Assembly (NCBI RefSeq): GCF_022201045.2
Contig: NC_068559.1
Span: forward strand, 1,488,001 to 1,552,000
DNA: 64,000 nucleotides
Direction of reading: 5' to 3'
Source: Citrus sinensis
Lineage: Eukaryota; Streptophyta; Magnoliopsida; Sapindales; Rutaceae
Within the stretch, counting starts at the first letter, position 1, and each line of letters opens with the position of its first letter. This document shows, piece after piece, positions 30,131-61,971 of the stretch. The notes under the pieces were generated by a model. The model did not search any database. It saw only the letters and a program-made list of their open reading frames with translations, and had not been told where the DNA came from. The position numbers were made by a program, and so were the translations under genes.

Positions 30131-30390
30131 ATCATACAACAGTTGCCAGATACAAACAACATTATTCTTCTTTTAAGGGGATGATAAAGTGCTAGAATAT
30201 TAAGATTACTTATCTTTGACATCCAGTAGAAGAAATGGAGACTTGTCCATTTCTTGGACAATCATACAACAGTTGCCAGATACAAACAACATTATTCTTC
30301 TTTTAAGGGGATGATAAAGTGCTAGAATATTAAGATTACTTATCTTTGACATCCAGTAGAAGAAATGGAGACTTGTCCAGATTCTGGCTT
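30131..30390. repeat. 130-bp tandem duplication at the ENGase 3' end (copy 1)
   Basis: 30131-30260 and 30261-30390 are near-perfect direct copies. The right unit contains the true last codons of the ENGase (PFLLLDVKDK and stop). The left unit repeats them as a non-coding or readable remnant in the 3' UTR. The same structure is present in copy 2, so it is older than the segmental duplication. Confidence 0.9.
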
Positions 30391-33300
30391 GTCCCCTCAA
30401 CACTGCATACTTGAATAATGAACTTGAGAGCATCAGTGTTTGAAGGAATGATGAGGTCGGAAATGTAAAATGATTCAACTCGTGCCACCCCAAGATACTC
30501 TTGTGTTGACTCTACCCTTCCATCCAGACTTCCGACTGCCTGTTTTGCTGGTTTCCCAAGATAGATATTATACTGGGGGAATACAGAATCATTCCCGTCT
30601 TTTAGTTTCCAGATGATCTTAGCACTTAGTGTTTTAGTACCCTGAGAATCTGAAGCAAATTTAACATATTGTGCCTCAACGAGCCATGAACTAGACAGAG
30701 GGAAGTCCGAGTTCTGTCCACTAGTTTTAATAGAAATATCCCCAAGGATTGCAAAATATTCTGCCGGAGTGTGAACTGATGCATTATCTTGAACATTTGA
30801 TGCGGACTCTAGAGTCCGCCTGCTGTTTTCAGGCTCTGGCCTGTAGCATACAGCACTGATTCCTGTTATTGTGTATCCACCCATTATAATTCTAGCTTCC
30901 CGTGTGGCCCATTCTGTGGTAGTTTCTAGCATTTTAACTTGGCGTGGAACAATCAATTCACTGAATTTGGTTGAAGATTGGTCAATTCTACGGGATGCAA
31001 GAAGTACTGACTTTCTTTCTTTTCTGGCCGAAGAGAACTCGAGAAGGAGGCCAAGTAGAGAAGTTTCTTCTGATTTTACCTGCAATGGTGGTAATTCTCA
31101 CAGTTAGTCTAGATGGAAGTAGAATTACACTGTGGATTATACTAAGGTAATTGGTGGGAAAAAGAAAAAGAAACTCAAAGTTCTTGCATGGATCCTAATG
31201 CCTGCTTGTGTACAGAATGTTCTAAGTTTCTAGTTTCAGAATGCAGGCATTGAATCAATCTCATTTGCACGCATGTTCTCATCAAATGGCCAGGTGAACG
31301 TAAGACATCAACATAAAACTTAAGTCTAGTATTAAAGCTGGTAATAATCATTTGAAATTGTGCTTTTCCTTCTTGATCTATAAAGAAATAGCTTACAGAA
31401 TATGTGATATAAACAGGCAAATTCCCCAACAGAAGCTCTGCCTGAAAAAGCCTTGCAATGAAACTGGCATTCTCTTCAAGAGTTCCTTTAAACGTTACAT
31501 TCCCCCCTCCACTATATGATGCTTCCTTGAAACTATAATTGCAAATAAATGATTAGGTGAGGCAGAGCTTTGATGCACAATATAGATCAATGGGTAAACT
31601 TCAATTAATCCCCTACTTAGAATGACAATCTTTAATCTACCCCCTTTTGCTGTTAAGAAGACAAAAAAATTCCTCAAGAAGCCCTCCATTTACCCTCATT
31701 TTCTGAACGAAAATTGGGGTAAATTGGGGTTTCACACTTTTGAGGGGTAAATTGAAGATGGTTATTTTATTTAGGGATGAATTGAAGTTTACCCTAAACA
31801 AATTAATGAAAAATAGAGATTGTGAACGAGGAATGCACTGTTGAGGTAATGTATGACAGCTTAAGCAACTAACAGCAAATCCCACCAAAACATGGAGATA
31901 CTGATGTATTCTAATTCCATGCTTAGATCTAATTTTACTTTGGATGCTTTGCTCTTGAGTTTTGATGGCAGGAAAAATAGAGCTGTGCAAGAGGTTGAGC
32001 AGACCATTTTTCATCCTTTGGGACAACATACTTTCTTATTCTCATGATAAGACCTATAATCTGATGTATCACAGAAAGATCAAAATATATCAAATCAGAT
32101 TACAGTACTTAATGGCTTAGACAACTTCCCATTACCCACATAAGAAAATGTATATCATGTGGCATACCATCCATGGAAATGGAAACTGTAAATCAGTTGA
32201 GATTTTACAAATATTAGGAGAAATAAACGATCTTTAAAACTTACTCAACAAGGACTTGAATAGTATCTGGATTAGGGTCATCTTTAAACTCAAGCATAGG
32301 CTGCCACAAGTATAGGGGAAAGTTAAAGCGGATAAAGAGTTTGATGGCTAGAGCAACAACAGGTCATGTTTACGTAGAACATTTTCATTTCTGGAGTAGT
32401 ATGACTATTATTATTGTCAATATGACCACAGTTTTAAACTACAAAAAGTAAGAACAAAAGAAACACAGGTCTAATCAGTGCTTACCTGAAAGCCTTGGGA
32501 AGAAATGTTATTCCACGGAGTGTCTAACATTTGCTCCCCCTCAAGAGAAATATGTAAACCATGACCCTGAACAATGTTGTGATGGTCAGTATTCTATGAA
32601 CTGGCATCTTATGAGCAGCAATTGACTGGTGCCCAGCACTAAGGTTTTAAATACAAGAACAGAGTATGAAATTTAACATAGTTGCTACCTGATCAAAATT
32701 TGAGTAGAATGGTAATACTTTGGGGTAATTTTGTAGAATTCCCCATGACTTTTCAACAAGGGACCACCAACTGCAGAAACGAACGTATATGAAAATGAAG
32801 CTTACCAAACCATTGTATAGATATTAGAGGAAACTATCTCAACAATGAAAGTAAGAGTTACACTGCTATAGATGAGCAGCATTGGAAAGATCTTCAAATA
32901 ATTGAAGTAGTAAAACAGAACATAAATCATAGTCCGGGACAGGTCAGGTAAGAGGAACCCAAGTATCATTGAAAGAATTCAGCAAATTTTGAAAATTTGT
33001 GTGGCTTTAACACTAAAAGATATGAAAATCTGTTGCTATGAGGAAAAAGAGGAAAGTTTTGAAGACGAGAATAAGTTCAGAAGTGAATAGTGACATTTTT
33101 CAGCTATTTATGCTCCTAAGAAGAGGGTCCATATGGCGTCCCAGATGAGTGCTGTTCCCACCTTTGTGAAATACAGTAAACAGGGTATACTGATAGTAGC
33201 AAAAATACACAGCAGCTGTGTGTGTATGTGCGCAGAACTTCCACATTCATGGAATTTCACAAAGGATAGGAGGATTACTGATTTTGAGCAGTCTGAAAGT

Positions 33301-35820
33301 CAGGTGGCTGCTTAGTCTCATAGATCCATCCAGGAGCAAATATGGCAGCTGACACATCATCCTTCTTTATCACATCCAGAGCGACATTTGTCTGATTTAC
33401 AAAGAATATAGTTACGAAAGAAAACTTTCCACACTTCAAAAAATTCAAACTACCAGAACTTGTACATAACTCTGTTTTACATAATAATATCTGGCATCAT
33501 GATGTGAATATACTTTAAAACATGTCTAGTAAGTAAAGACTCAAAAGTACATATTACATGGGAGTTGAAGATAATTTCGCAACCAATAAATGAAATACGT
33601 CGAAGTATGCTACTTCAACAAGAAAAACAATCAAACAGGTAATCTTAATTTGGTTTGACAGAAAGATGAGCTAATTTATCTTGCTTACCGAACTAGTATG
33701 TCACCACAAGTGGGTAGAAGAGACTTTTGAAAAAAAAAAAAAAAAAAAATTCATAGAAGCGACTTAGAAGATGGAAAAATTCAAACTTCTCCTAATAGGG
33801 TCCACATTGAATGAAATCAATTGGAAGATTAGATATAATATAATATAGAATTAAAACGTAGACTGTAAGAAACTTTTAAGATGAAGATTCACAAATCTCA
33901 TAAAGTTAACAGGTCACATACATTCCATTTTCCACCTCCAAAAGTGTTCCTTCCAAATACATCTATTCCCATGTAGACATCAAACTTCCTATCACCTGCA
34001 ACAGCTGCTGAAAGCTTTGGATAGTCTTCCTACGAGGCAACCAAGAATTATTGAATACAAGAATCCACCATTAAGTTCCATACAAGGGGCAAAGATAAGG
34101 GCTTACCTTCCATGTATAGTTTACAAATATGCCGTCACATATATCAAAGAAAGGTTTATTTTTTTCATTCAGTTGGTCTTGCCAGTCAAGTTTCCCATCA
34201 ATTGTAACACTGTCATACCTGCAAAAACAATATTAATCGATAAAATATAAATTCAAGACAAATTACTACAGCACAAAATTCAAGAGAACGTAGCATATCC
34301 TAATGGTCACACTCACCAGATAGCCAAAGATCCAGGCACTGAGGAGTGCATAGTTTGAGTTAAATGGCTGACAAATTCTTTCAAGTTAGGGATTTGATCT
34401 ACATCCAGTTCAACCTCCATATTAATCTGCAAGTAACAGTTCCCATATCAACAACTGAAAGGGAGTGCACAGACGACACTCTATGTAGCACATAAAACTG
34501 AAAAAAGCTAGAAGAAAATCAAAAAGTCAGAGATTTAATAAAACCTATACCAGCCACCCATCAAAGCCCAAAGCAACCGCAAGCTATGCCAAGCGCTCAG
34601 CATAAGTATGAGCAGACTCCTTTGTAGATAGCAATTCAGTGGCAATAACTTTTCCTTCATCCCCTTCTGTGATGAAAGTCCCTAAAACCTATTATTCCAT
34701 GAGCACAAGAGAAATATCATCATATACAATTAAAATTCCTCAAGTCATTCACTTATCACTCTCATGGATTGAGAATAAAGTACACCATCAATATTCAAAA
34801 TGTCAAGCTACCAAAGGAATAAAAAATAAAAGGCAAATCATGGTCTATAATAATAATTAAAAAAAAAAACTCCCAATTGGATAGCCTTGCACCACCATGT
34901 CGTAATCATATCATGGATACCATCTAGACATTGTGAGCTTACACTGCACCAACTGTAAAGCATAGTACTTGCCCTCGGAAAAAATTTCTGCTCAGTCTCT
35001 ATAATTATTGTTATAACAGCTATGGTCATTTCCCATAATTGATCAATCTTTCATTCAAGAATTTAACCCCCCACCCCCTACTCACACACAAACTCACAGA
35101 AAAAAAGGAAAATCGTCTTGATGAGTACATTGTCGTTGAACATATTATATTAAAAGATCATTAATAAAGTTGAATAAAGAAAAAGCAAACACTACAAAGA
35201 GTAAAAGCTTATATGAGGTTTTTATCCACAATCAATCATTTCCTCCCTTAAACTCCATACACTACAAACAGTGAAAGCAAACACAAAATTAAAACCAAGA
35301 AGCAAAGAAAACAAAAGCAAAACATAAAAGGCATGTCTTTTAATTTTCAACTAACTAAGCACTTATTGTTCAAGAACGAAATATAAATTAAAAAAAAAAG
35401 AAAAAGAAAAAGAAATTGCACTACCTTAACGCCATGTCTGTGAGCAGTGTTAGTCCAACAAGGAGGAGGCAAAGTGACCAAACTATGAGAAAAATAAACA
35501 AAAACATCCATCAAATGCCAATGCCAAATAGCGTAGGCGTCGGCATTGGTCCCACCTTGGACCCACTTATCATCCACGTAGCCACCTTGCATGTCATGGC
35601 AAACCAAAATCCTCGGCCTGGCAGGTAGAGTTGGAGACGCACCGTTCAGAGGATGAAGAGGAACAGTCGACTTATTAAAAGGGTAGTGAAAGGAGTCAAA
35701 GTAAGCGCGAGAGTGAAGATCTTGGAGGGTTTTAATGGGGTAAGAGATGGGAATCGACGGCTGCAATGGGTCGAACGGAGGAGGATCGACGGCTGAGGAG
35801 TCGTCGTTGGAATTGGACAT
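30336..35820 (-). pseudogene. ENGase (copy 1): Cytosolic endo-beta-N-acetylglucosaminidase (GH85), copy 1, broken by one nonsense codon
   Basis: GH85 enzyme family that cuts the GlcNAc-GlcNAc core of free N-glycans in the cytosol. Eleven exons keep frame throughout: 35820-35425, 34688-34551, 34426-34317, 34218-34107, 34029-33922, 33391-33279, 32770-32689, 32566-32486, 32300-32245, 31532-31397 and 31079-30336; 691 codons if read through. Family landmarks are PRILVCHDMQGGYVDDKWVQG, TLPPPCWTNTAHRHGVK, GFDGWL-INME (Asn180/Glu182 catalytic pair), FVNYTWK and YMGIDVFGRNTFGGG. Codon 167 in exon 2 is TAG (34584-34586) where copy 2 has GAG. This truncates the protein before the catalytic pair. All splice sites look normal. 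Exon 2 is 138 bp and phase 0, so skipping it would keep frame but delete part of the barrel. A longer N-terminus from 36006 is also open. Confidence 0.88.
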
Positions 35821-36006
35821 GGTGATGAAGAGAACGAGGGAGTGGAGAGTTTTTTTAAGTGAGAGGAGGGAGTTGCGGAGAGTTTTTAGAGTTTGACGAT
35901 TGATGTAAGTCCGAAGAAGATGATGAAGTATTATTATTATTAAGATACATGGGACGACGACGAAGACGAAGACGAAGGTCAAGTCTTGACAGTGAGTTTG
36001 GAACAT

Positions 36007-36675
36007 GGCAGGAAGCTTCGCTTTTGCTGTGCCTTTAAATGCTTTTGTTGACTTCGTTCTTGGTCTTCGTCATCGCTTACAGTCAGTCAGTCAGTCAGTC
36101 GACTGTACATCAACAACTATTCTACAAGTGCTGGTGAATATAACATTGAAGCTTGAGACTACTCAGACACCTTCACCATTATAGAAGCATATTTCTTTCA
36201 TCCATCTCTCTGTTACTATTCAGTTCCGTAAATTTTACCAACAATCACAAGGAAGAGCAAGTAAGCTAAGATATTTCTGGAAATTCGGATCCAATCAATT
36301 TCATTTGTACCGGTGTTTATCACATGCTTTAAAGTCATGGTTACTTCATAGCGAATGGCATAATTTATTCAACTGAATATAACAAGATCAAATACAGAAT
36401 TACTGATTATTAAGAAATGCACAGGGAACTCCAGTGAGAGACAGTTCTTCTAATCTACAAAATTATTTAAATATTTTTGTATTAAGTGCCAATGGGGCAA
36501 GAAATTTCCCTGAGGTGTGACAGAACACCAATAATGCATATCATTAGAGGAGGGCAAAACAAGCTTTACATGGGTTGGGGCACAACCAGACGGCAGGTTA
36601 AGATTTCTTCTCATTGAGGGCTGACAACACCCAATCAACATCAAAACTTGCAGAATCATGACCTGCATGATGCAC
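36007..36675. other. Spacer between helicase and ENGase genes (copy 1)
   Basis: About 670 bp holding the helicase 3' UTR and the ENGase promoter. It has a short CAGT repeat run at about 36081-36100. No gene seen. Confidence 0.5.
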
Positions 36676-39600
36676 TTATAGCAACTCTTCTGTCCCCGTC
36701 ATCTTTGCAAATTCACTTTCATCTATACTACCCTTTTTTAGCTTTTTTAATAGGCGGTAATCCCGGGCCAGCTCATCTTCGTCTTCGATTGCCTGGGTAG
36801 CACGTCTCTGTTTTGCTGTTTTCTTCCTCATCACAGTAGTTGCAGCATCTGAGGCCTTGTTTGGTTTCTGTCGTTTTGGTTCTTTCTGCTGTGCCTCTTT
36901 CTTTGCTTGCAAATTCTTCTTCCTTTGTTTCTCACGTGATTTATCCCTGATTTAATATAGTTATCAGCTATGGTCACAGGCGTACACAGATCTTAAAAAT
37001 AAAAAAATAAAAATTAATTCCATCAATGCTGCATATGTGAAAAAGCATAAATGATAAGAGGAATGTGATGTTGGATGATTCTTATACAAAAATCATAAGG
37101 TTTCCCATCATTTTCCTTTCAATACTGAAAAAAGAGGCAAAAGAAATTCAGCTAATTTTGCTGCAAGTTTGCCTTGGAAACCAAAAAGGTTTTGAACAAT
37201 GGTCTGTCTGAACTTGGTTGAAAAAATAAATTTATCTTTTAAAAATATTGAAAGAAGTCAATATCTTGCTAAATGAAAAAGAAGAAGACTGGTTGTGAAG
37301 TGAAAGCATTTAAGAAATTCACAAATCGAATATGGGGTTTCTTCCTCTATGATGACTTCCATGTCAATTGTCAATGCAAATTATTAGGCTCTTTGATTCT
37401 ATTTAATCAACAAATTTTGATAACACATTGTTAGTTCTTACTTGTACTTGATGTCCTCCAACTTGATGTCTTTAACTGGGACGAAACCCTTGGTGGAAAG
37501 AGAATGGATCTTTACCTCAGACATTGAAGGAAGTTGTAGTAAGCCATAACCCATAGCCAATTTCCCGACCTCAAGTTCTTTCCACCTATATAATATGATG
37601 GATAAAAAACATTATAACGAAACAATAAAAAATGCAGAGAGAAATTATGGATAGAAGGCAGTAGTGACCTGAAGATATACGAGCAGTGATGCTCTTTATA
37701 TGCACGTATATAAGAAACAAATGCTCTGAGACCTTTCTCCATGACATCACGGTCTTTTTTTGCTGCAGATCGAATCTGAAACAAGTTTTGATACTATGTT
37801 GGATCAACCATTTTCTTCTCACTACACACCGGAATATATAGAACAAATTTCCAAAACCAAAAACAATGGAAGAGAATAAGATAGAAATCATGATCACCTC
37901 AGGAACTACATCAGAAGCATCATCAGAGCATTTCCTCTCTTGAAGAGGAACCCTTCTTATCCGCAGGAATTCTACATAAGCTTCCTCCTGAACAAGTATA
38001 ATTAAATTAATTTCCCTAGAAATTTTTCTTTAACAAGAATAGTACATGATAAGGGAGTCAGTATGCGGGTGAAAGACACCTTGGGTGATAGGAAAACAAT
38101 GGAGCGCCCTTGTCTACCCAACCTAGCAGTTCGACCAACTCTGTGAACGAAAACATTTGGATCTTGAGGGGGATCATACTGCAAGATAACAAACACATTA
38201 ACCACCACACATAAAGTAACACGGATAATGACTGGTCTACTTTTCTGCAATTTACAAAGTCACCTGCACTATACAATCAACACCAGGAATGTCAAGTCCA
38301 CGTGCAGCAACATCCGTACATAGAAGAATGCCACTTGAAAGAGATGTAAATGAAGCTAATGCTTTCTCCCTAGCAGTCTATTTGTAATCAAAATCAATCA
38401 AAATGAGTAATAATATACACCAGCCGACTTCTGAAATTGTAATATAAGATTCTGAGGATATTTCAATAACTAACATCCTACCTGCTTCATCTTTCCATGA
38501 AGAGGAATCAACGAGAGACTCTTCAAAACAGCCAGACGTGGAAGAACAACTCCCCAGTAGTCAACACAAGCACAAGTCATGAAATATCTGAAGACATACA
38601 TTAATCCTATTATGAAATTATGATTAATCATAGGCCATTAACTACAAAAAGATAGCATCATCCATCCTCTGAGAAATTTCCATGCTGAACTTACATTATA
38701 ATCTTTTTAGACTTGTTCTTTATAAGCAGATCAACAAGTTGTGATGGTTTCTCATCTGGTTCACATTCCAAATACTGCAGAATCAGAGGAGAAATTAATT
38801 CAGAATAAATGCAGAACTTACAAAGACTATTAGTGTTCAAATCATAACAAAGGGTTACTATTTTTGTCAAATTAGGGGGGGGAAATCCAATTAGTCTGAA
38901 ATGACATCAAACATGAATATTTAGCACAACCCAGAGTTTGCTTTATGGCTTTGAAGAAGAGGATAAAAAATTAATTCAAGTGACTTCCAGATTCAATAAA
39001 TGTCTTCCAGGATCTAATATGTCAAATTAAAATTCCAAAAATCATTATTTGAGTTTATTTGGCTTCAATTCTGTTTAACCACATGCAACGTAAATTGCAA
39101 CCAAAATATATTCACACACAACACCTCAAGATGAAGGCCTAAAGGTGTTTTCGAAGAGGCTAGTTGCTGCGATGATGCCGATACATGATGTGATTTTGAT
39201 TCTGCTCGCACTTCAACCCTCACAGGATTCCTCAGCCCTGCTTTGGATAGCTCTTCAACTGCCTCAGTTTGAGTAGCTGAAAAAAGGCCAGTTCTACGAA
39301 GTTTAGGCAGGCGAGATATGATGTAACTGATCTGTTTCTGGAATCCCATATCCAAGAGCCTGTCAGCCTCATCTAGAACCAAAATCTGCACAACCAGCAA
39401 GATGAAGCTGTAAGGTCACCAAAGTACAGGATCCAAGTATTATCTTTGTGAAAAATTGTTCAAAAATTACATTCTAAATTAGTGTAATCTTCAGTCATAA
39501 TCATTAAACATCTGTCAATTGTCTAGTTAAGTCTTCATTAAACAAATCCAGAGGCTACTGATCCTTGCACTCATTGTGCATTGTCAACTGACAAACTATA

Positions 39601-40680
39601 AATTCAGCAACATGGATTAAAAGTCCTCTAGATAATCACTAACAACAAAAACAAGGTGTGAATTGAAGCCAAGATTTCCATAAAATAGAAAAGACAATGA
39701 AGATCATCAATCTCTATCCAAACCAAGATTAGAAATTAATACATTATAGAGAATCAAACATCCAAGCAACTACCTCAAGGTTCCGAAAATCCAAGACATC
39801 CATACGTTCCATTATATCATATAGCCTCCCAGGTGTCCCGATCAACAAATTTGCTCCTTCTTCCTCTATTTTCTTCACATCTGCTTTCACCTCCACACCT
39901 CCCACAAGAAGCACAGACTTAACATCCGGTAAAGTTGAGATGAACGGCTGTGCAACATGGTATATTTGCGATGATAGCTCCCTTGTTGGTGAGATAATCA
40001 TCCCCATTATCTGCTCTCAATTCAAAAACTAATTTCTCAACAAAGTAATCACTAAAAGCAAATGCAATTCACTCGATACATAATAAAATTGCCAGTGCAA
40101 TGCAATCAATTTATTTAGAATCAACTACAACTAGAAGTAAAAACTATTCAAGTACTTAGAAGAACTATTTGACTATTTTCTAGTGCGGTGCTAAGAGAAG
40201 CAAAAGTGCTCACGCAAAGTGCTTTTCAAAGAATCAGTAAGAGTTTTTGTAGAAAATTTAACTGAAAAATAAATCATATGCATTTTTTGGGTAAAAAGTA
40301 AAAAAAAAAAAAAAGCTATTTGAGCTCGTTGAGTTCATTTAAATATAAATTTCTATGTTTTAATTTAATTTTCCTGAAGCTTCTAGGCAGCCAAACACAA
40401 ATGAGAAAATGTTTTGGACCTGGTGGGGTTTCCGAGCAGAAGAGGCACGGCGGAGGATCTCCACTAGAGGGACGACAAAAGCTAGGGTTTTGCCAGAGCC
40501 GGTGGCGGCGTCCACGGCTACGTCCTTGTAGCTGCATAACAAAGGGATTGTGGCAGCTTGAACAGGCGTGCAAAACTCAAAGCCGGCTTCAGCTAAGGCT
40601 TCGAGAACTGGCTCGGAAAGCGCCGGCTTCAAATCGGAAAAGCGAGTTTCTGTTAACGCTTTGTTCGGGTTGGACTCCAT
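36676..40680 (-). CDS. RH18: DEAD-box ATP-dependent RNA helicase, RH18/DDX55 (Spb4) type, intact copy
   Basis: Nucleolar-type RNA helicase of the Spb4/DDX55 group, expected to act in 60S ribosome assembly. Eleven exons: 40680-40420, 40010-39774, 39385-39125, 38774-38695, 38587-38482, 38377-38264, 38178-38080, 37987-37898, 37775-37669, 37585-37442 and 36946-36676. They sum to 1770 bp, 589 aa, close to Arabidopsis RH18. Motifs in order: FCTPVQ (Q motif, about 36-41), AATGSGKT (58-65), PTREL (95-99), GTPGRL, DEAD (171-174), SAT (202-204), [18 protein letters not shown] (365-372). The C-terminus is Lys/Arg-rich, with the Spb4-type [17 protein letters not shown] block and [13 protein letters not shown]. 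The start is the first ATG. It lies about 670 bp upstream of the ENGase gene on the same strand. This copy has no lesion. Confidence 0.96.
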
Positions 40681-41994
40681 TCTAACGGTTCAAGGCAAGC
40701 GCGGATTCGGAGTCAGATAGCATCCATTGATACCTACTGAAAACATATCAAATCAGTCCCTTAATTTTATATTTATTTCTCGATGAAAAACAAAGGCTTC
40801 GGTAGACAGTGGAGTTGTTCTACTGTAGAGAACTGACGGTGATCCTTACGTTATAGTAATAAGTGTAGATTTAATATTTATTTTTATGATCGTACGGTTA
40901 TCAACAATATTTTACCATTGAGTAGATAATTTTTTATGATTGAGCGGTGAAAATTATGAGCATGACCCTATTATTGAATAATGTAGTATAACTACTATAA
41001 ATTAACATTCTTTGAACCATAAAAAATCTATTAATTTAATAAATATTAGTACATCGAGTACATCGAGTAAAGTTGTATGATACATTTTAATTAAATCTTG
41101 TTTAAATGTATCAATCACTTAATAATTCATTGATTAGATTGTACAACTAGATTACAATTATATAGTAACACATTAGAAGAGCACTTGGAGGAAATATATT
41201 AAGTTGACCTCTCTCTTATTCCTCTTCACATATTACATTAGTATAATAACAGAAATTAATTTCAAGCACGAAACATTGAAAATTTATTTATCAAAAACCT
41301 CATAGACATATGATATATATTTAGTTTCAATTCAGGTAATTATTAATATACCTATTAATTGGGTCGGTAGAAAAACAAGAATGTTTTGAAAGTTTTTTAT
41401 TTAATAACTTCTCAAATGATTAAGTTATCATGTTGGTCCCAAGTTGGGAGAAAAAAGTAATTATTTAATCAAGATTATGAATTTATCGAGTATTAATTTA
41501 ATGAAGTTCTGTTGTATAGTCAATTTTTTTATTTTTCTATTTTTTACTAATTTTATAGTCAATGGACAAAAGTAGCCATCATTAGAACCCCCTTTGGGAT
41601 TATAGTTAAAATGCTATAAATAATTTATTTCATAAGTTTTGGTAAAAATGGTGTTTGATAAATTTTTTAAAATGTTATTTATTTTATAAGTTTCTACATT
41701 TTTGCAGCAGACTTTTAAAGTTTTTTATAAACAACTTATTAAATAGAGTACCACACTTTTTTAATTTTTTATTGTAATTTTAATATTTTAACAAAAGGAT
41801 AAGTATATCTTACTTTTTCACAAACTCTTATATGCTTATATACAAACAAAAGAAAATTTACACTTATGTTTATTTAGGCCATTATATAATAAAATAGTAC
41901 TTTGATAATAAATTTACCAAAGACACATACTTTTTTTTTAAAAAAACTGAAAGTAATTACAATAACACAATTTACTAAACACTGAGTTATTTTT
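40681..41994. other. Upstream flank of RH18 copy 1, then AT-rich insertion
   Basis: 40681-41040 still aligns, more weakly, with 61972-62300. From about 41040 the sequence has no counterpart in copy 2. 41590-41960 has MITE-like words (CCCTTTGGGATTATAG, TTTACCAAA) but no clear ends. Confidence 0.4.
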
Positions 41995-44332: not shown

Positions 44333-44495
44333 TTATTATGATTATGATGATGACAACGATGATGATGATGATGATGATGACAACGATGATGATGATCATG
44401 ATGATGATGATGATGATGATCATGATGACGACGACGATGATGATGATGACGACGACGATGATGATAACGACGATGACGATGATGATGACGATGAC

Positions 44496-44530
<35 letters not shown>

Positions 44531-44581: not shown

Positions 44582-44607
44582 ATAGAACCCAAATTAGCTC
44601 AACCATC

Positions 44608-46398: not shown

Positions 46399-46400
<2 letters not shown>

Positions 46401-49199: not shown

Positions 49200-49950
49200 T
49201 AACTTCGTGTAGAACCATGTATCTTTAGTTAATTAGATATAATTGTTTAACTTAAACAGTATTATACTATTATTTTATTCTTAATATCACGTTCTTCCAA
49301 TTTTTTTTTTAATATTTTTATTTGTATGAATACTTGTTTTCTGAAAAAACAAGCAATAATGGTGGGAAAAGTGCCGAAGTCCCAAATAACGAATTCTAAC
49401 TATGCCATTAGTGTGTTAGCAGTTATTTAATCTTTTAAGTTTTTTAATAGTAGGTTATAAAACACCATCGTATTGCGATGCAATTTAGAAGCTTTAACTC
49501 GTATTAACATTAATCAAGTAAGAGACTAATATTTTAATTAATTAAATGCAAATCACTTTCGCATATTATTTTTTTATTTTCCAATAATGTAATATTAGAG
49601 TATAGATTATAGAGGCGTTTGACCTAGAATTCGGTTGAGTGATTTCAAGCATTTTTATTTAATTAGTCACCCGTGTTTAAATCTTGGATGAGATAGGAGG
49701 TTATAAATTGATTAGAACTTTGTACACTCGTCAGTCTTTGCACTAGAACTTAGAATGAATTAGTTTGGCATTAATCTCATAGTTATCTAATTGAATTGTT
49801 TAACCAAAGCATGTTAATAGATTTGATTTTTAAGAAAAAAAAAATTAATGAAGTTATTGTTCATAAAATGATAAAATGACAAAGGTAATCCAATTAAAGT
49901 AGTTTTTTCACCGAAGATTTTACCAAATTTTTACTGTTAATCATTTCTTT
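49200..49950. other. AT-rich intergenic
   Basis: No gene or clear repeat seen. Confidence 0.4.
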
Positions 49951-49960
49951 CAACTTCCAA

Positions 49961-50578
49961 ATGGATGTTCCAATATATCTTCTTGCTATTTCTTCCCCGT
50001 TACTAGATTTAATAAGTGTTCATGACGAATTACCAGAGCGTCGGGATAATTACTTTTTGCTTCCCTTTTTCTGCTGCAATATGTCTTCAATGATCGTAAC
50101 ACCGAGCACTTTCATGCTGTTGATCATGTCGTCGGAGATCATCATAGCGTTGTCTCTTATCAAGTCTACCAATTATAACCTCTTGAGACTGATGTCGGTA
50201 ATTTGTGCAAATGTGCTCATTGTAGGTTTGTTCCCTTCGTTGGTATGGTCACTTAGTTGAGCGAAGCTCCTCTATGAGTTGTTGTACGAGCTATCATTTG
50301 TCGTTGAGAGCATATTCTAATTGTTCTTGCCACTAATGCATGTCCTCAAGTTAGAGGAGCTAATTCATTTTCAACTTGATCTCTGTCATCCTTGGGATTA
50401 TTGGTGCCAACATCTTCAGAGGATCTAGAGGAACAGTGCCATTCAAGTCTTGAGTCACTATTATGAAGGAAATGGCGGAGGCCATAGGCATTTTGTGTTT
50501 CAAGAAATGAGGTTTTTTTTTTTCAACGTTCCCCATAGACGGTGTCAACTGTTGACACCAAAAATTCACATCATATAC
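49961..50578 (-). mobile_element. Truncated Gypsy (Tat/Ogre-like) 5' leader plus LTR stub
   Basis: On the minus strand the sequence reads GGTGTCAACA (LTR end) and then TTGACACCGTCTATGGGGAA, close to the TTGGCGCCGTCTGTGGGGAA primer-site region of Tat-type Gypsy elements. A leader open frame (50360-50569) follows. Only about 28 bp of the LTR remain before the start of segmental copy 2. The inner limit is uncertain. Confidence 0.6.
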
Positions 50579-51411
50579 TGTTCACAGCTTAAATGTCTGT
50601 GCAAGTTCACATGATTCTGTTTGATAATATGCACATCAAAGACTCGACCATTCTTATGAAAAAGTCAAGGCAGCCGAAAAGAAGCCATAAGATTTAATTA
50701 TCTAATAAATAAGACAAAATTCAGGCATAGAACTTCTAAGAAAATTGACCCATTTTGGTTTAGTACATGAATGAACTTCCCACCGGCCAGATCAGGATAT
50801 AGGTTAAGTGAGAGTCAAATGAAGTTTAAAGAAACAGAATTTAATTAAAAGTCACCATGAAAAGACTAAGGAACGCGCTTGCCTTTTTTTTTTTAAAAAA
50901 AAAAAAAATCAACTTCCATGTTTTTTTCTTTTTCTTTTTATAATTCTCAAGGGAGACAAGAAAGATATGGAATCCTCATTTTCTCTTTTGAGGGCTCGAG
51001 GATAATACTTACCAATTCAATCAAATATCTTTCATTCTTTCGATTAATTATCTTATTTCTTGATCATTCTTATTTCATATAGGTTCCATTTATTTAAGGC
51101 CCTGTTCACAGAATAGCTCTTCCTTTTCATTGTTCTATAGCAGTTAGTTTTGGAACTAAGCGCAGAGTCCAGTGTTCTTGATTCTTCAAGCCATGTATGC
51201 CTATACCCTCTTTCAATATCTTTGTTTAGTCTATGTGTTGGGGACTCACTGAACTCGAGAAAAATATTACCTAGACCAAAAACGATAGTCTCCAGTTTTG
51301 ACTAACTCAGCTCTGCTCTTTTTCGGTAGAAAAAATGGAGAAGCTTGTTGTGTGGTAAACATATTACTAATGCCAATGTGTCATCACAGAACAGTTTTAG
51401 TGTAAGGAATA

Positions 51412-51671
51412 ATCATACAACAGTTGCCAGATACAAACAACATTATTCTTCTTTTAAGGGGATGATAAAGTGCTAGAATATTAAGATTACTTATCTTTGA
51501 CATCCAGTATAAGAAACGGAGACTTGTCCATTTCTTGGACAATCATACAACAGTTGCCAGATACAAACAACATTATTCTTCTTTTAAGGGGGATGATAAA
51601 GTGCTAGAATATTAAGATTACTTATCTTTGACATCCAGTAGAAGAAATGGAGACTTGTCCAGATTCTGGCT
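51412..51671. repeat. 130-bp tandem duplication at the ENGase 3' end (copy 2)
   Basis: Same structure as at 30131-30390, with a 130-bp period and one extra G in the second unit. Confidence 0.85.
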
Positions 51672-54600
51672 TGTCCCCTCAACACTGCATACTTGAATAA
51701 TGAACTTGAGAGTATCAGTGTTTGAAGGAATGATGAGGTTAGAAATGTAAAATGATTCAACTCGTGCCACCCCAAGATACTCTTGTGTTGACTCTACCCT
51801 TCCATCCAGACTTCCGACTGCCTGTTTTGCTGGTTTCCCAAGATAGATATTATATTGGGGGAATACAGAATCATTCCCGTCTTTTAGTTTCCAGATGATC
51901 TTAGCACTTAGTGTTTTAGTACCCTGAGAATCTGAAGCAAATTTAACATATTGTGCCTCAACGAGCCATGAACTAGACAGAGGGAAGTCTGAGTTCTGTC
52001 CACTAGTTTTAATAGAAATATCCCCAAGGATTGCAAAGTATTCTGCCGGAGTGTGAACTGATGCATTATCTTGAACATTTGATGTGGACTCTAGAGTCCG
52101 CCTGCTAGGCTCTGGCATGTAGCATACAGCACTGATTCCTGTTATTGCGTATCCATCCATTATAATTCTAGCTTCCCATGTGGCCCATTCTGTGGTAGTT
52201 TCTAGCATTTTAACTTGGCGTGGAACAATCAATTCACTGAATTTGGTTGAAGATTGGTCAATTCTACGGGATGCAAGAAGTACTGACTTTCTTTCTTTTC
52301 TGGCCGAAGAGAACTCGAGAAGGAGGCCAAGTAGAGAAGTTTCTTCTGATTTTACCTGCAATGGTGGTAATTCTCACAGTTAGTCTAGATGGAAGTAGAA
52401 TTACACTGTGGATTATACTAAGGTAATTGGTGGGAAAAAGAAAAAGTAACTCAAAGTTCTTGCATGGATCCTAATGCCTGCTTGTGTACAGAATGTTCTA
52501 AGTTTCTAGTTTCAGAATGCAGGCATTGAATCAATCTCAGCACGAATGTTCTCATCAAATGGCCAGGTGAACGTAAGACATCAACATAGAACTTAAGTCT
52601 AGTATTAAAGCTAGTAATAATCATTTGAAATTGTGATTTTCCTTCTTGATCTATAAAGAAATAGCTTACAGAATATGTGATATAAACAGGAAAATTCCCC
52701 AACAGAAGCTCTGCCTGAAAAAGCCTTGCAATGAAACTGGCATTCTCTTCAAGAGTTCCTTTAAACGTTACATTCCCCCCTCCACTATACGATGCTTCCT
52801 TGAAACTACAATAGCAAATAAATGATTAGGTGAGGCAGAGCTTTGATGCACGGTATAGATCAATGGGTAAACTTCAATTAATCCCCTACTTAGAATGACA
52901 ATCTTTAATCTACCCCCTTTTGCTGTTAAGAAGACAAAAAAATTCCTCAAGAAGCCCTCCATTTACCCTCATTTTCTGAACGAAAATGGGGGTAAATTGG
53001 GGTTTCACACTTTTGAGGGGTAAATTGAAGCTGGTTATTTTATTTGGGGATGAATTGAAGTTTACCCTAAACAAATTAATGAAAAATAGAGATTGTGAAC
53101 GAGGAATGCACTGTTGAGGTAATGTATGATAGCTTAAGGAACTAACAGCAATCCCACCAAAACATGGAGATACTGATGTATTCTAATTCCATGCTTAGAT
53201 CTAATTTTACTTTGGATGCTTTGCACTTGAGTTTTGATGGCAGGAAAAATAGAGCTGTGCAAGAGGTTGAGCAGACCATTTTTCATCCTTTGGGACAACA
53301 TACTTTCTTATTCTCATGATAAGACCTATAATCTGATGTATCACAGAAAGATCAAAATTTATCAAATCAGATTACAGTACTTAATGGCTTAGACAACTTC
53401 CCATTACCCACATAAGAAAATGTATATCATGTGGCATACCATCCATGGAAATGGAAACTGTAAATCAGTTCAGATTTTACAAATATTAGGAGAAATATAC
53501 GATCTTTAAAACTTACTCAACAAGGACTTGAATAGTATCTGGATTAGGGTCATCTTTAAACTCAAGCATAGGCTGCCACAAGCATAGGGGAAAGTTAAAG
53601 CGGATAAAGAGTTTGATGGCTAGAGCAACAACAGGTCATGTTTACGTAGAACATTTTCATTTCTGGAGTAGTATGAATATTATTATTGTCAATATGACCA
53701 CAATTTTAAACTACAAAAAGTAACAACAAAAGAAACACAGGTCTAATCAGTGCTTACCTGAAAGCCTTGGGAAGAAATGTTATTCCACGGACTGTCTAAC
53801 ATTTGCTCACCCTCAAGAGAAATATGTAAACCATGACCCTGAACAATGTTGTGATGGTCAATATCCTATGAACTGGCATCTTATGAGCAGCAATTGACTG
53901 GTGCCCAGCATTAAGGTTTTAAATACAAGAACAGAGTATGAAATTTCACATCGTTGCTACCTGATCAAAATTTGAGTAGAATGGTAATACTTTGGGGTAA
54001 TTTTGTAGAATTCCCCATGACTTTTCAACAAGGGACCACCAACTGCAGAAACGAAGGTATATGAAAATGAAGCTTACCAAACAATTGTATAGATATTAGA
54101 GGAAACTATCTCAACAATGAAAGTAAGAGTTACACTGCTATAGATGAGCAGCATTGGAAAGATCTTCAAATAATTGAAGTAGTAAAACAGAACATAAATC
54201 ATAATCCGGGACAGGTACAGGTAAGAGGAACCCAAGTATCATTGAAAGAATTCAGCAAATTTTGAAAATTTGTTCAGGTTTAACACTAAAAGATATGAAA
54301 ATCTGTTGCTATGAGGAAAAAGAGGAAAGTTTTGAAGACGAGAATAAGTTCAGAAGTGAATAGTGACATTTTTCAGCTATTTATGCTCCTAAGAAAAGGG
54401 TCCATATGGCGTCCCAGATGAGTGCTGTTCCCACCTATGTGAAATACAGTAAACAGGGTATACTGATAGTAGCAAAAATACATAGCAGCTGTGTGTGTAT
54501 GTGCGCAGAACTTCCACATTCATGGAATTTCACAAAGGATAGGAGGATTACTGATTTTGAGCAGTCTGAAAGTCAGGTGACTGCTTAGTCTCATAGATCC

Positions 54601-57089
54601 ATCCAGGAGCAAATATGGCAGCTGACACATCATCCTTCTTTATCACATCCAGAGCGACATTTGTCTGATTTACAAAGAATATAGTTACGAAAGAAAACTT
54701 TCCACACTTCAAAAAATTCAAACTACCAGAACTTTTACATAACTCTGTTTTACATAATAATATCTGGCATCATGATGTGAATATACTTTAAAACATGTCT
54801 AGTAAGTAAAGACTCAAAAGTACATATTACATGGGAGTTGAAGATAATTTCACAACCAATAAATGAAATACGTCGAAGTATGCTACTTCAACAAGAAAAA
54901 CAATCAAACAGGTAATCTTAATTTGGTTTGACAGAAAGATGAGCTAATTTATCTTGCTTACCGAACTAGTATGTCACCACAAGTGGGTAGAAGAGACTTT
55001 TTTTTTTTTAAAAAAAAGAAAAAATTCATAGAAGCGACTTAGACGATGGAAAAATTCAAACTTCTCCTAATAGGGTCCACATTGAATGAAATCAATTGGA
55101 AGATTAGATATAATATAATATAGAATTAAAACGTAGACTGTAAGAAACTTTTAAAATGAAGATTCACAAATCTCATAAAGTTAACAGGTCACGTACATGC
55201 CATTGTCCACCTCCAAAAGTGTTCCTTCCAAATACATCTATTCCCATGTAGACATCAAACTTCCTATCACCTGCAACAGCTGCTGAAAGCTTTGGATAGT
55301 CTTCCTACGAGGCACCCAAGAATTATTGAATACAAGAACCCACCATTAAGTTCCATACAAGGGGTAAAGATAAGGGCTTACCTCCCATTTATAGTCTACA
55401 AATATGCCGTCACAAATATCAAAGAAAGGTTTATTTTTTTCATTCAGTTGATCTTGCCATTCAAGTTTCCCATCAATTGTAACACTGTCATACCTGCAAA
55501 AACAATATTAATCGATAAAATATAAATTTAAGACAAATTACTACAGCACAAAATTCAAGAGAACGTAGCATATCCTAATGCTCACACTCACCAGATAACC
55601 AAAGATCCAGGCACTGAGGAGTGCATAGTTTGAGTTAAATGGCTGACAAATTCTTTCAAGTTAGGGATTTGATCTACATCCAGTTTAACCTCCATGTTAA
55701 GCTGCAAGTAACAGTTCCCATATCAACAACTGGAAGGGAATGCACAGATGACACTCTATGTAGTACTTAAAACTGAAAAAAGCTAGAATAAAATCGAAAA
55801 GTCAGAGATTTAATAAAACCTATACCAGCCACCCTTCAAAGCCCAAAGCAACCGCAAGCTCTGCCAAGCGCTCAGCATAAGTATGAGCAGACTCCTTTGT
55901 AGATAGCAATTCAGTGGCAATAACTTTTCCTTCATCCCCTTCTGTGATGAAAGTCCCTAAAACCTATTATTCCATGAGCACAAGAGAAATATCATCATAT
56001 ACAATTAAAATTCCTCAAGTCATTCACTTACCACTCTCATGGATTGAGAATAAAGTACACCATCAATATTCAAAATGTCAAGCTACCAAAGGAATAAAAA
56101 ATAAAAGGCAAATCATGGTCTATAATAATAATTCAAAAAAAACTCCCAATTGGATAGCCTTGCACCACCATGTCGTAATCATATCATAGATACCATCTAG
56201 ACATTTTGAGCTTACACTGCACCAACTTTAAAGCATAGTACTTGCCCTCCGAAAAAATTTCTGCTCAGTCTCTATAATTATTGTTATAACAGCTATGGTC
56301 ATTTCCCATAATTGATCAATCTTTCATTCAAGAATTTAACCCCCCACCCCCTACTCACACACAAACTCGCAGAAAAAAGGAAAATCGTCTTGATGTGTAC
56401 ATTGTCGTTGAACATATTATATTAAAAGATCATTAATAAAGTTGAATAAAGAAAAAGCAAACACTACAAAGAGTAAAAGCTTATATGAGGTTTTTATCCA
56501 CAATCAATCATTTCCTCCCTTAAACTCCATACACTACAAACAGTTAAACAAACACAAAATTAAAATCAAGAAGCAAAGAAAACAAAAGCAAAACATAAAA
56601 GGCATGTCTTTTAATTTTCAACTAACTAAGCACTTATTGTTCAAGAACGAAATATAAATTAAAAAAAAGAAAAAGAAAAAGAAATTGCACTACCTTAACG
56701 CCATGTCTGTGAGCAGTGTTAGTCCAACAAGGAGGAGGCAAAGTGACCAAACTATGAGAAAAATAAACAAAAACATCCATCAAATGCCAATGCCAAATAG
56801 CGTAGGCGTCGGCATTGGTCCCACCTTGGACCCACTTATCATCCACGTAGCCACCTTGCATGTCATGGCAAACCAAAATCCTCGGCCTGGCAGGTAGAGT
56901 TGGAGACGCACCGTTCAGAGGATGAAGAGGAACAGTCGACTTATTAAAAGGGTAGTGAAAGGAGTCAAAGTAAGCGCGAGAGTGAAGATCTTGGAGGGTT
57001 TTAATGGGGTAAGAGATGGGAATCGACGGCTGCAATGGGTCGAACGGAGGAGGATCGACGGCTGAGGAGTCGTCGTTGGAATTGGACAT
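51618..57089 (-). CDS. ENGase (copy 2): Cytosolic endo-beta-N-acetylglucosaminidase (GH85), intact copy
   Basis: Cleaves between the two core GlcNAc residues of free or misfolded-protein N-glycans, expected in the cytosol. Eleven exons: 57089-56694, 55963-55826, 55701-55592, 55493-55382, 55304-55197, 54664-54552, 54042-53961, 53838-53758, 53572-53517, 52805-52670 and 52355-51618. They join in frame to 689 aa. The catalytic Asn-x-Glu (LNME, residues 180-182) is present; GDRKFDVYMGIDVFGRNTFG and AAIFAPGWIYE are typical GH85. Codon 167 is GAG, unlike the TAG in copy 1. Compared with copy 1 it lacks two residues in exon 11 (EN of PEPENSRR), and has WE for WK at the end of exon 4 and GQWH for GKWN at the end of exon 5. 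An upstream in-frame ATG (57287) would add 66 residues, including a hydrophobic stretch. Confidence 0.92.
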
Positions 57090-57952
57090 GGTGATGAAGA
57101 GAACGAGGGAGTGGAGAGTTTTTTTAAGTGAGAGGAGGGAGTTGCGGAGAGTTTTTAGAGTTTTACGATTGATGTAAGTCCGAAGAAGATGATGAAGTAT
57201 TCTTATTATTAAGATACATGGGACGACGACGAAGACGAAGACGAAGACGAAGACGAAGGTCAAGTCTTGACAGTGAGTTTGGAACATGGCAGGAAGCTTC
57301 GCTTTTGCTGTGCCTTTAAATGCTTTTGTTGACTTCGTTCTTGGTCTTCTTCATCGCTTACAGTCAGTCGGTCAGTCAGTCGACTGTACATCAACAACTA
57401 TTCTACAAATGCTGGTGAAGAAAAAATTGAAGCTTGAGATTAATCAGACATCTTCACCATTATAGAAGCATATTTCTTTTATCCATCTCTCTGTTACGAT
57501 TAAGTTCCGTAAATTTTACCAACAATCACAAGCAAGAGCAAGTAAGCCAAGATATTTCTGGAAATTCGGATCCAATCAGTTTCATTTGTACCGGTTGCTT
57601 TATAGCTAATGGCATAATTTATTCAACTGAATATAACAAAATCAAATATGAAATTACTAATTTTTAAGAAATGCACGGGCAACTCCCGTGAGAGCCGGTT
57701 CTTCAAATCTACAAATTTATTTAAATACTTTTGTATCGAGTGCCAATGAGGCAAGAAATTTCTCCGAGGTCTGACAGAACACCAATAATGCATATCATTA
57801 GAGGAAAATAATAACAAATCAACAGCTGAATCTTACAAGTTGCTTAGGCCCCCCAAAGAGACTAAAACTGGGGGGAGTAGCTTTCTTCATTGAGGCCTGA
57901 CAACACCCAATCACCATCAAAACTTGCAGAATCGTGATCTGCATAATGCACT
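57090..57952. other. ENGase copy 2 promoter and spacer
   Basis: Spacer to the helicase remnant. Contains the open N-terminal extension frame (57090-57287) and a sequence aligned to 36007-36675 with several indels. Confidence 0.5.
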
Positions 57953-60900
57953 TTATAGCAACTCTTCTGTCCCGGTCATCTTTGCAAATTCACTTTCCTC
58001 TATACTCCCCTTTTTTAGCTTTTTTAGTAGACGGTAATCCCGAGCCAGCTCATCTTCATCTTCGATTGCCTGGGTAGCACGTCTCTGTTTTGCTGTTTTC
58101 TTCCTCATCACAGTAGTTGCAGCATCTGAGGCCTTGTTCGGTTTCTGTCGTTTTGGTTCTTGCTGCTGTGCCTCTTTCTTTGCTTGCAAATTCTTCTTCC
58201 TTTGTTTCTCACGTGATTTACCCTGATTTAATATAGTTATCAGCTATGATCACAGGCTTACACAGATCTTAAAAAAATAAATAATTCCATCAATGCTGCA
58301 TATGTGAAAAAGCATAAATGATAAGAGGAATGTGATGTTGGATGATTCTTATACAAAAATCATAAGGTTTCCCATCATTTTCCTTTCAATACTGAAAAAA
58401 GAGGCAAAAGAAATTCAGCTAATTGTGCGGCGTGTTTTCCTTGGAAACAAAAAAGGTTTTGAACAATGGTCTGTCTGAACTTGGTTGAAAAAATAAATTT
58501 ATCTTTTAAAAATATTGAAAGAAGTCAATATCTTGCTAAATGAAAAAGAAGACTGCTTGTGAAGTGAAAGCATTTAAGACATTCACATATCGAATATGGG
58601 GTTTCTTCCTCTATGATGACTTCCATGTCAATTGTCAATGCAAACTACGAGGCTCTTTGATTCTATTTAATCAACAAATTTTGATAACAGATTGTTAGTT
58701 CTTACTTGTACTTGATGTCCTCCAACTTGATGTCTTTAACTGGGACGAAACCCTTGGTGGAAAGAGAATGGATTTTTACCTCAGACATTGAAGGAAGTTG
58801 TAGTAAGCCATAACCCATAGCCAATTTCCCGACCTCAAGTTCTTTCCACCTATATAATATGATAGATAAAAAACATTATAACGAAACAATAAAAAATGCA
58901 GAGAGAAATTATGGATTGAAGGCAGCAGTCACCTGAAGATATAGGAGCAGTGATGCTCTTTATATGCATGTATATAAGAAACAAATGCTCTGAGACCTTT
59001 CTCCATGACATCGCGGTCTTTTTTTGCTGCAGATCGAATCTGAAACAAGTTTTGATACTATGTTGGATCAACCATTTTCTTCTCACCACACACCGGAATA
59101 CATAGAACAAATTGCCAAAACCAAAAACAATGGAAGAGAATAAGATAGAAATCATGATCACCTCAGGAACTACATCAGAAGCATCATCAGACCATTTCCT
59201 CTCTTGAAGAGGAACCCGACTTATCCGCAGGAATTCTACATAAGCTTCCTCCTGAACAAGTATAATTAAATTAATTTCCCTAGAAATTTTTCTTTAACAA
59301 GAATAGTACATGATAAGGGAGTCAGTATGCGGGTGAAAGACACCTTGGGTGATAGGAAAACAATGGAGCTCCCTTGTCTACCCAACCTAGCAGTTCGACC
59401 AACTCTGTGAACGAAAACATTTGGATCTTGAGGGGGATCATACTGCAAGATAACAAACACATTAACCACCACACATAAAGTAACACGGATAATGACTGGT
59501 CTACTTTTCTCCAATTTACAAAGTCACCTGCACTATACAATCAACACCAGGAATGTCAAGTCCACGTGCAGCAACATCCGTACATAGAAGAATGCCACTG
59601 GAAAGAGATGTAAATGAAGCTAATGCTTTCTCCCAAGCAGTCTAGTTGCAATGAAAATAAATCAAAATAAGTGATAATATACACCAGCCGACTTCTGAAA
59701 TTATAATCTAAGATTCTGAGGATATTTCATAACTAATATCCTACCTGCTTCATCTTTCCATGAAGAGGAATCAAAGAGAGACTCTTCAAAACAGCCAGAT
59801 GTGGAAGAACAACTCCCCAGTAGTCAACACAAGCACAAGCCATGAAATATCTGAAGAAATACATTAATCCTATTTTGAAATTATGATAAATCATAGGCCA
59901 TTAACTACAAAAAGATAGCTTCATCCATCCTCTGAGAAATTTCCATGCTGAACGTACATTATAATCTTTTTAGACTTGTTCTTTATAAGCAGATCAACAA
60001 GTTGTGATGGTTTCTTATCTGATTCACATTCCAAATACTGCAGAATCAAAGGAGAAATTAATTCAGAATAAATGCAGAACTTACAAAGACTGTTAATGTT
60101 CAAATCATAACAAAGGGTTACTATTTTTGTCAAATTAGGGGGAAAAATCCAATTAGTCTGAAATGACATCAAACATGAATATTCAGCACAACCCAGAGTT
60201 TTCTTTATGGCTTTGAAGAAGAAGATAAAAAATTAATTCAAGTGACTTCCAGGTTTGATACATGTCTTCCAGGATCTAATATGTCAAATTAAAATTCCAA
60301 AAATCATCATTTGAATTTATTTTGTTTCAATTCTGTTTAACCACATGCAACGTAAATTGCAACCAAAATATATTCACACGCAACACCTCAAGATGAAGGC
60401 CTAAAGGTGTTTTTGAAGAGGCTAGTTGCTGGGATGATGCCTATGCATGATGTGATTTTGATTCTGCTCGCACTTCAATCCTCACAGGATTCCTCAGCCC
60501 TGCTTTGGATAGCTCTTCAACTGCCTCAGTTTGCGTAGCTGAAAAAAGGCCAGTTCTACGAAGTTTAGGCAGGCGAGATATGACGTAACTGATCTGTTTC
60601 TGGAATCCCATATCCAAGAGCCTGTCAGCCTCATCTAGAACCAAAATCTGCACAACCAACAAGATGAAGCCATAAGGTCACCAAAGTACAAGATCCAAGT
60701 ATTATATTTGAGAAAAATTATTCAAAAATTACGTTCTAAATTAGTGCATTCTTCAGTCATAATCTCATTAAACATCTGTCATTTGTCCAGTTGTCTTCAT
60801 TAAACAAATCCAGAGGCTACTGCCCTACAAAGGCTACAAGGAATTTTAGCTGATCCATGCACTCATTGTGCATTGTCAACTGACAAACTATAAATTCAGC

Positions 60901-61971
60901 AACATGGATTATAAGTACTCTAGATAATCACTAACAACAAAAACGAGGTGTGAATTGAAGCCAAGATTTCCATAAAATAGCAAAGACAATGAAGATCATC
61001 AATCTCTATCCAAACCAAGATTAGAAATTAATACACTATAGAGAATCAACCATCCAAGCAACTACCTCAAGGTTCCGAAAATCCAAGACATCCATACGTT
61101 CCATTATATCATATAGCCTCCCAGGTGTTCCGATCAACAAATTTGCTCCTTCCTCCTCTATTTTCTTCACATCTGCTTTCACCACCACACCTCCCACAAG
61201 AAGCATAGACTTAACATCTGGTAAAGTTGAGATGAACGGCTGTGCAACATGGTATATTTGCGATGATAGCTCCCTAGTTGGTGAGATAATCATCCCCATT
61301 ATCTGCACTCAATTCAAAAACTAATTTATCAACATAAGTAATCACTAAAAGCGAATGCAATTCACTGGATACATAATAAAATTGCCAGTGCAATGCAGTC
61401 AATTTATTTAGAATCAACTACAACTAGAGGTAAAAACTATTCAAGTACTTGGAAGAACTATTGACTATTTTCTAGTGCGGTGCTAAGAGAAGCAAAAGTG
61501 CTCACGCAAAGTGCTTTTCAAAGAATCAGGAAGTGTTTTTGTAGAAAATTTAACTGTGAAAGAGCTTCATATGCATTTTTTTGGGTAAAAAGTAATTAAA
61601 AAAAAGCTATTTGAGCTCATTGAGTTCATTTAAATATAAATTTCTATGTTTTAATTTAATTTTCCTGAAGCTTCTAGGCAGCCAAACACAAGTGAGAAAA
61701 TCTTTTGGACCTGGTGGGGTTTCCGAGCAGAAGAGGCACGGCGGAGGATCTCCACTAAAGGGACGACAAAAGCTAGGGTTTTTCCAGAGCCGGTGGCGGC
61801 GTCCACGGCTACGTCCTTGTAGCTGCATAACAAAGGGATTGTGGCGGCTTGAACAGGCGTGCAAAACTCAAAGCCGGCTTCAGCTAAGGCTTCGAGAACT
61901 CGCTCGGAAAGCGGCGGCTTCAAATCGGAAAAGCGAGTTTCTGTTAACGCTTTGTTCGGGTTGGACTCCAT
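57953..61971 (-). pseudogene. RH18 (copy 2): RH18/DDX55-type DEAD-box helicase, copy 2, broken
   Basis: Paralogue of 36676-40680. Exons: 61971-61711, 61302-61066, 60647-60387, 60037-59958, 59850-59745, 59641-59528, 59442-59344, 59251-59162, 59039-58933, 58849-58706 and 58222-57953. Exon 3 contains TAG (60441-60443) where copy 1 has TCG, ending the protein at residue 234, after DEAD and SAT but before the second RecA domain. Exon 11 is 270 bp instead of 271: one base is missing at its 5' edge, which shifts the frame of the basic tail to an early TGA. Other changes hit conserved positions (R318W, R378S, E to V in LLVGGVVV). Splice sites look intact. With two independent lesions it is very unlikely to make a working helicase. 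Confidence 0.9.

Follow-up and report, generated by a model that had tools for sequence, protein, structure and literature searches.

Two copies of one gene pair lie in tandem in the genome of sweet orange (Citrus sinensis), each broken in a different gene: is this a reciprocal gene loss of the kind that can lead to hybrid incompatibility, or the ordinary decay of a tandem duplicate? The question was raised by an earlier note on a stretch of 64,000 nucleotides (hereafter the window; 1.488–1.552 Mb of NC_068559.1, our contig C4, 29,622,500 bases), in which a gene for the helicase RH18 and a gene for ENGase each occur twice. We analyzed the window together with the genome (300 Mb, 11 contigs); positions beyond its right-hand end are given in extended coordinates, that is, in window numbering with 30 kb added on the right. 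Our answer is that a 21-kb ENGase–RH18–PNO1 neighbourhood has very probably been duplicated and its copies broken in different genes: the decay of the tandem duplicate is real but ordinary.

Comparison of the window with itself by BLAST returns one long repeat, 29295–41005 against 50575–62292, matching at 95.2% over 11,809 columns. Both blocks hold an RH18 gene and an ENGase gene, all on the minus strand. The repeat continues past the helicase, where 43409–50575 corresponds to 62477 to ∼79294 (extended) in pieces at 86–96%; the stretch from 45077 to 50575 matches extended 73813–79294 at 95.7%. The copies stand head to tail with an exact junction at 50574/50575, and both unit ends are common to the two copies. 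Unit 1 (29295–50574) thus measures 21.3 kb, the sequence repeating again from 50575; unit 2 measures 28.7 kb, lying at 50575–64000 inside the window and ending ∼15.3 kb beyond it.

Homologues were collected for both genes (for ENGase, the best 120 of 1074 matches in a protein database clustered at 90% identity; for RH18, the best 120 of 8000 matches). Among the matches listed in both searches (the rest were not checked systematically), RH18 and ENGase have locus tags that directly follow each other in ten species (Ziziphus, Canavalia, Bauhinia, Rubus, Rhododendron simsii, Rhododendron molle, Paulownia, Lonicera, Rubroshorea and Xanthoceras (ACOSQ2)) and, again among the matches listed, tags two steps apart in Xanthoceras (ACOSP7) and Shorea. 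The adjacency is probably ancestral and, because the genes have neighbouring tags in other species, both were probably duplicated together as one neighbourhood.

The exons of copy 1 were built by hand and then projected onto copy 2 via the alignment; every intron of the four models (both genes, both copies) starts with GT and ends with AG. RH18 copy 1 (36676–40680, minus strand) has 11 exons and an open frame of 1770 bp (589 amino acids). Its protein is 100% identical to the C. sinensis database protein P0121 and scores above the Pfam cut-offs for DEAD, Helicase_C and CTE_SPB4, copy 1 being the copy examined. RH18 copy 2 (57952–61971, minus strand) still has every splice site and is a pseudogene: a TAG occupies codon 235 (60441–60443), and the start of exon 11 (58222) is one base shorter than in copy 1, causing a frameshift. 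DNA searches of the genome with two parts of the gene recovered the two tandem copies and a relic on contig C8.

The ENGase pair is broken the other way round. Copy 1 (30336–35820, minus strand; 11 exons) carries a TAG at codon 167 (34584–34586), where copy 2 reads GAG; copy 2 (51618–57089, minus strand) is open over 2070 bp (689 amino acids), two residues having gone with a 6-bp deletion. Where the frame starts is a matter of choice: in the C. sinensis model P0001 the start lies 62 codons upstream, at 36006. Pfam assigns Glyco_hydro_85 and Ig_ENGASE1_C, and genome-wide the GH85 domain is found at these two loci only (8/8 matches on C4). In both units (30130–30379 and 51411–51661) the terminal part of the ENGase frame is covered by a 130-bp tandem repeat (1.9 copies), whose repeats are 100% alike within copy 1 and 97% within copy 2. 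The structure described in the earlier note is therefore reproduced: self-BLAST and exon models agree on two blocks with both genes on the minus strand, on the intact RH18 copy 1 and ENGase copy 2 at the lengths it gave, and on its three lesions.

Could the lesions, or the tandem arrangement itself, be products of assembly, two haplotypes having been placed in tandem or sequencing errors having created the stops? Sweet orange is a heterozygous hybrid with strongly differing haplotypes (PMC10873711), which lends the idea some substance. Against it stand the exact head-to-tail junction and the repeated unit, and also the behaviour of public gene models. Outside the lesions the models P0001 for ENGase copy 1 and P0127 for RH18 copy 2, both of C. 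sinensis, and the Citrus unshiu model P0136 for RH18 copy 2 match the window; at the lesions they bend around them. In P0001 an exon stops at 34590, one codon before the TAG, and the next begins at 34426, an arrangement that requires a GC donor. P0127 removes 33 nt (60473–60441), ending on the TAG, and begins exon 11 at 58198, beyond the frameshift. P0136 leaves out the last part of exon 3, from 60473 onward, and includes intron sequence (58473–58393) before exon 11. An intron of 33 nt is, to our knowledge, smaller than any known from plants, and models that skirt a stop are typical gene-finder output where the genome carries one. Since public Citrus models skirt the same sites, errors confined to this assembly are unlikely.

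The tandem pair is also present in other sequence sets, both RH18 copies being modelled in C. sinensis and in C. unshiu. The C. sinensis models (P0121 and P0127) come from contigs of equal size (29,627,743), as do those of C. unshiu (CUMW_052350 and CUMW_052370; 2,402,814); from the equal sizes and near locus tags we infer that each pair lies on one contig. Finally, the RH18 introns of the two copies are 4.2% apart, as against the ∼1.3% expected between haplotypes from 4.12 million single-nucleotide polymorphisms (SNPs) over 306–321 Mb (PMC10873711); a heterozygosity of 3.02%, above the ∼1.3% of sweet orange, is quoted for Huyou, a related hybrid. Sequencing error and haplotype misplacement were rejected on the junction, the models of other Citrus sets and the intron divergence, and we hold an artefact to be very improbable.

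These models carry a practical lesson. Four Citrus entries (P0001, P0126, P0127 and P0136) avoid stops or read into introns, and the likely pseudogenes behind them pass as database proteins: public Citrus annotations give near-full-length proteins for apparent pseudogenes, in one case through an intron of 33 nt whose last bases are the stop codon. P0001 is the only Citrus-named entry among the best 120 of 1074 ENGase matches and represents a cluster of 28 members, behind which other Citrus ENGases may be hidden in the 90%-clustered database. When short, truncated ENGase models from Citrus were sought, no Citrus-named entry appeared among the 120 of 128 matches listed, many of them nameless, the best identity being 83%.

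Replacements were polarized against 112/120 listed homologues for RH18 (eight Citrus or near-Citrus rows dropped) and 118/120 for ENGase (P0001 and P0002 dropped), a state being called derived by a 50% rule or, in a stricter variant, at sites at least 90% conserved. The RH18 pair differs by 18 nonsynonymous and 23 synonymous changes and neutrality is rejected (P 6e-6). Four of the 18 replacements are derived in copy 1 and ten in copy 2, with four left unassigned, and three of the changes in copy 2 (T284A, R318W and R440H) fall at sites invariant in 112/112 homologues. This pattern fits an RH18 copy 1 under constraint and a copy 2 that is relaxed.

ENGase gives a different picture. With 20 nonsynonymous to nine synonymous changes, neutrality is not rejected (P 0.26). 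The stop apart, two of the 20 replacements are derived in the stopped copy 1 and 11 in the open copy 2, seven being left unassigned; at one of the 11, codon 650, the residue of copy 2 is common to both Melia sequences. At codon 167, the site of the stop in copy 1, 112/118 homologues have E. Two of the changes in copy 2, D175E and N248D, fall at sites invariant in 118/118 homologues. The open copy is not clearly the gene that has been kept, and the suggestion that the two blocks together equal one working set falters on these altered residues.

The catalytic residues of Endo-A are N171 and E173 (PMC2646837); N180 and E182 of the query align with them and are present in both copies, in copy 1 after the stop. 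A loop of Endo-A at 242–248 controls access to the active site (PMC2646837), and counting along the alignment places ENGase codons 248 and 250 opposite N242 and W244, inside this loop. At both codons copy 2 is unlike copy 1 and most homologues (codon 250 is T in 78/118). The product of copy 2 may be impaired or altered. A change of function, in which codons 175, 248, 250, 252, 288 and 317 adjust the active-site cleft, has in its favour the open frame and the derived residues in the access loop; the N:S count of 20:9 does not exceed neutral expectation, however, and the 6-bp deletion and the other changes of copy 2 are scattered, so that we consider a change of this kind improbable.

How far did the duplication extend? 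The earlier note spoke of a two-gene duplication, yet the unit is 21 kb long, and PNO1, at the least, was probably also part of it at one time. The surplus of unit 2 is mostly one stretch of 8.1 kb (extended 65253–73350), which contains an open PNO1-type KH gene (219 amino acids; Pfam KH_PNO1_2nd) and part of an SNF2 gene (Pfam SNF2-rel_dom, with a sub-threshold SAWADEE match) that we take to be CLASSY-like. The latter seems to be without its C-terminal half: no stop-to-stop open reading frame (ORF) of at least 70 amino acids occurs on its strand at extended 66150–68650. At the corresponding place unit 1 has 323 bp (44346–44668), a probable deletion scar consisting of an (ATG)n run plus a fragment that by eye resembles copia gag.

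A second PNO1 (92% at the amino-acid level) was found on C8, with a decayed relic of RH18 2.4 kb away (C8:23752605–23756978); the two keep the same order and orientation. The relic is heavily deleted and includes pieces of intron. No ENGase match was present in the 40 kb fetched around this pair. The C8 locus is read as an older duplicate of the same neighbourhood. The relic beside the C8 PNO1 implies that the RH18–PNO1 adjacency predates the tandem duplication, which in turn makes deletion from unit 1 likelier than insertion into unit 2; PNO1 was probably lost from unit 1 by deletion. Insertion had been favoured when the C8 PNO1 appeared and was dropped on finding the RH18 relic next to it.

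The age of the duplication was approached through divergence. The copies differ by 4.2% in RH18 introns (94/2215 sites), by 2.1% in ENGase introns (71/3399) and by 3.3% in the rest of the unit alignable from 45077 on (180/5459); synonymous divergence (dS) is 0.059 for RH18 against 0.020 for ENGase. The contrast between the two genes is significant both for dS (P 0.006) and for introns (P 5e-6). Moreover, 495 bp at 35400–35894, in the region of ENGase exon 1, are identical between the copies, a length that a uniform-rate simulation places between its 95% and 99% points. The lower divergence and the identical run hint at gene conversion over ENGase, of which 35400–35894 is a possible tract. In the RH18–ENGase intergenic region (36415–36675) the copies are ∼20% apart in one 200-column window, far above most of the block.

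A protein tree of RH18 was built from 12 sequences and 523 columns, gapped columns and 15 columns differing only between models of the same copy having been removed beforehand. Copy 1 groups with P0122 of lime (support 91) and copy 2 with P0123 of C. sinensis (support 82); P0124 of Huyou is unplaced (support 46). From these groupings the duplication seems older than the lineages concerned. A recent split, as had been supposed, is not borne out by RH18 introns 4.2% apart and a dS of 0.059. The available part of PMC8313541 offers no usable mutation rate.

The order of events that we infer would run as follows. An ancestral ENGase–RH18–PNO1 neighbourhood would have been duplicated head to tail in the Citrus lineage as a 21-kb unit, probably by unequal exchange or replication error, and redundancy would have opened the way to decay of the copies. 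Unit 2 would have lost RH18 through a nonsense codon and a frameshift; in unit 1 a deletion would have removed PNO1, and a nonsense codon would have disabled ENGase. RH18 in unit 1 would have been retained by selection (from its kinship with Spb4 the helicase is presumably required in ribosome assembly). ENGase would be weakly constrained, with both copies drifting and the open one perhaps altered already.

Several observations weigh against this account. At sites at least 90% conserved, derived ENGase residues are equally divided between the copies (two and two, the stop apart), and the difference in N:S that sets RH18 apart from ENGase is of borderline significance (P 0.052). The open ENGase still has the catalytic N and E, its functional decay being judged from conservation. 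The count of RH18 copies comes from DNA searches with two parts of the gene alone. No trace of PNO1 was detected in unit 1 (best BLAST E 0.51), and the PNO1 difference could alternatively reflect an insertion in unit 2.

Does the locus then provide an engine of hybrid incompatibility? Under divergent resolution as envisaged by Lynch and Force, populations fix different functional copies and some of their hybrids are left without a working gene. The mechanism requires that haplotypes or populations differ in which copy of a given gene they retain and that the copies recombine freely, so that null recombinants arise. One entry speaks for variation of this sort: P0123, from a C. sinensis contig of another size (28,307,159), is an intact RH18 and, as noted, groups with copy 2. 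The copy-2 lesion is therefore not universal but polymorphic; P0123 informs on copy 2 only, and among the Citrus proteins listed none points to a haplotype that lacks a working RH18 copy 1. Furthermore, the starts of the copies are separated by 21 kb of the same chromosome, whereas the published incompatibility cases compared below concern unlinked loci; at this distance in cis a gamete with neither copy should need a rare exchange, and null gametes should be rare. As for ENGase, Arabidopsis double knock-outs show no apparent morphological change in normal cultivation, although their free N-glycans bear two GlcNAc instead of one (PMC4154441). The tandem duplication, the breakage of a different gene in each copy and the reality of the lesions, all part of the reciprocal loss first proposed, stand; its extension to hybrid incompatibility is not supported, the losses affecting different genes on one haplotype, in cis. 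An incompatibility engine is accordingly very unlikely.

Sweet orange is a pummelo–mandarin hybrid, propagated clonally, with 4.12 million SNPs between its haplotypes (PMC10873711), and in a clonal hybrid with haplotypes so divergent sheltered broken alleles are to be expected. It is conceivable, if doubtful, that the present haplotype is without any working ENGase, one copy being stopped and the other altered at invariant residues of the active site, and that it has RH18 in unit 1 only, a working RH18 of the copy-2 lineage being kept on another C. sinensis haplotype. If true, a clonal hybrid citrus would shelter a heterozygous ENGase null together with two haplotypes carrying different working RH18 copies, all masked in gene catalogues by models that splice out stops.

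Three neighbouring features lie to the left of the units: an S1-domain ORF at 2614–3216 (minus strand), presumably resembling eIF2-alpha, a tRNA at 4625–4706 (minus strand) and a LOB-domain ORF at 26530–26904 (plus strand). Within unit 1, a short element at 45435–45639 matches C8 at 23745541–23745741 and at 23760222–23760427, the latter in both orientations. It is also found in unit 2 (extended 74176–74366) and looks like a palindromic transposable element.

Tandem-duplicate decay remains our preferred reading, and it makes of this locus a clean local case of complementary decay, with enough sequence left to polarize most changes. New relative to the earlier note are the larger unit, the probable loss of PNO1, the wear on the open ENGase and the artefacts of annotation. 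If the open ENGase lacks activity, a naturally occurring null for this enzyme would exist in a fruit crop, in the form of this haplotype. Among the papers listed on citrus with reciprocal gene loss, or on citrus with the enzyme name (for the latter, 10 of 28), there is no account of the locus, and the name RH18 is absent from the 8 of 330 papers listed in a further search.

Set beside known systems, the Citrus pair shares much with pseudogenization after tandem segmental duplication: the copies are head to tail, one copy of each gene is broken by a stop, a frameshift or (probably) a deletion, and the broken RH18 is relaxed. It differs in that each copy has lost different genes, leaving the losses complementary across the pair. 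Compared with plant RH18 (an Spb4-type DEAD-box helicase), copy 1 agrees in domains, length and high identity (100% to P0121), whereas copy 2 is a pseudogene. Compared with plant cytosolic ENGase (GH85), the domains and the catalytic NxE motif are kept, but copy 1 is stopped and copy 2 is altered at residues invariant in 118/118 plant homologues. With pTAC14 of Mimulus (PMC5896889), DGS1/DGS2 of rice (PMC5555463) and the pairs studied in Arabidopsis (PMC8042742), the locus has in common a duplicated plant gene with one copy broken. In these systems, however, copies of one gene were lost in different populations, the copies lying on chromosomes 13 and 14 in Mimulus, on different chromosomes in rice, and in pairs chosen as unlinked in Arabidopsis; in Citrus the losses strike different genes, in cis, on one haplotype.

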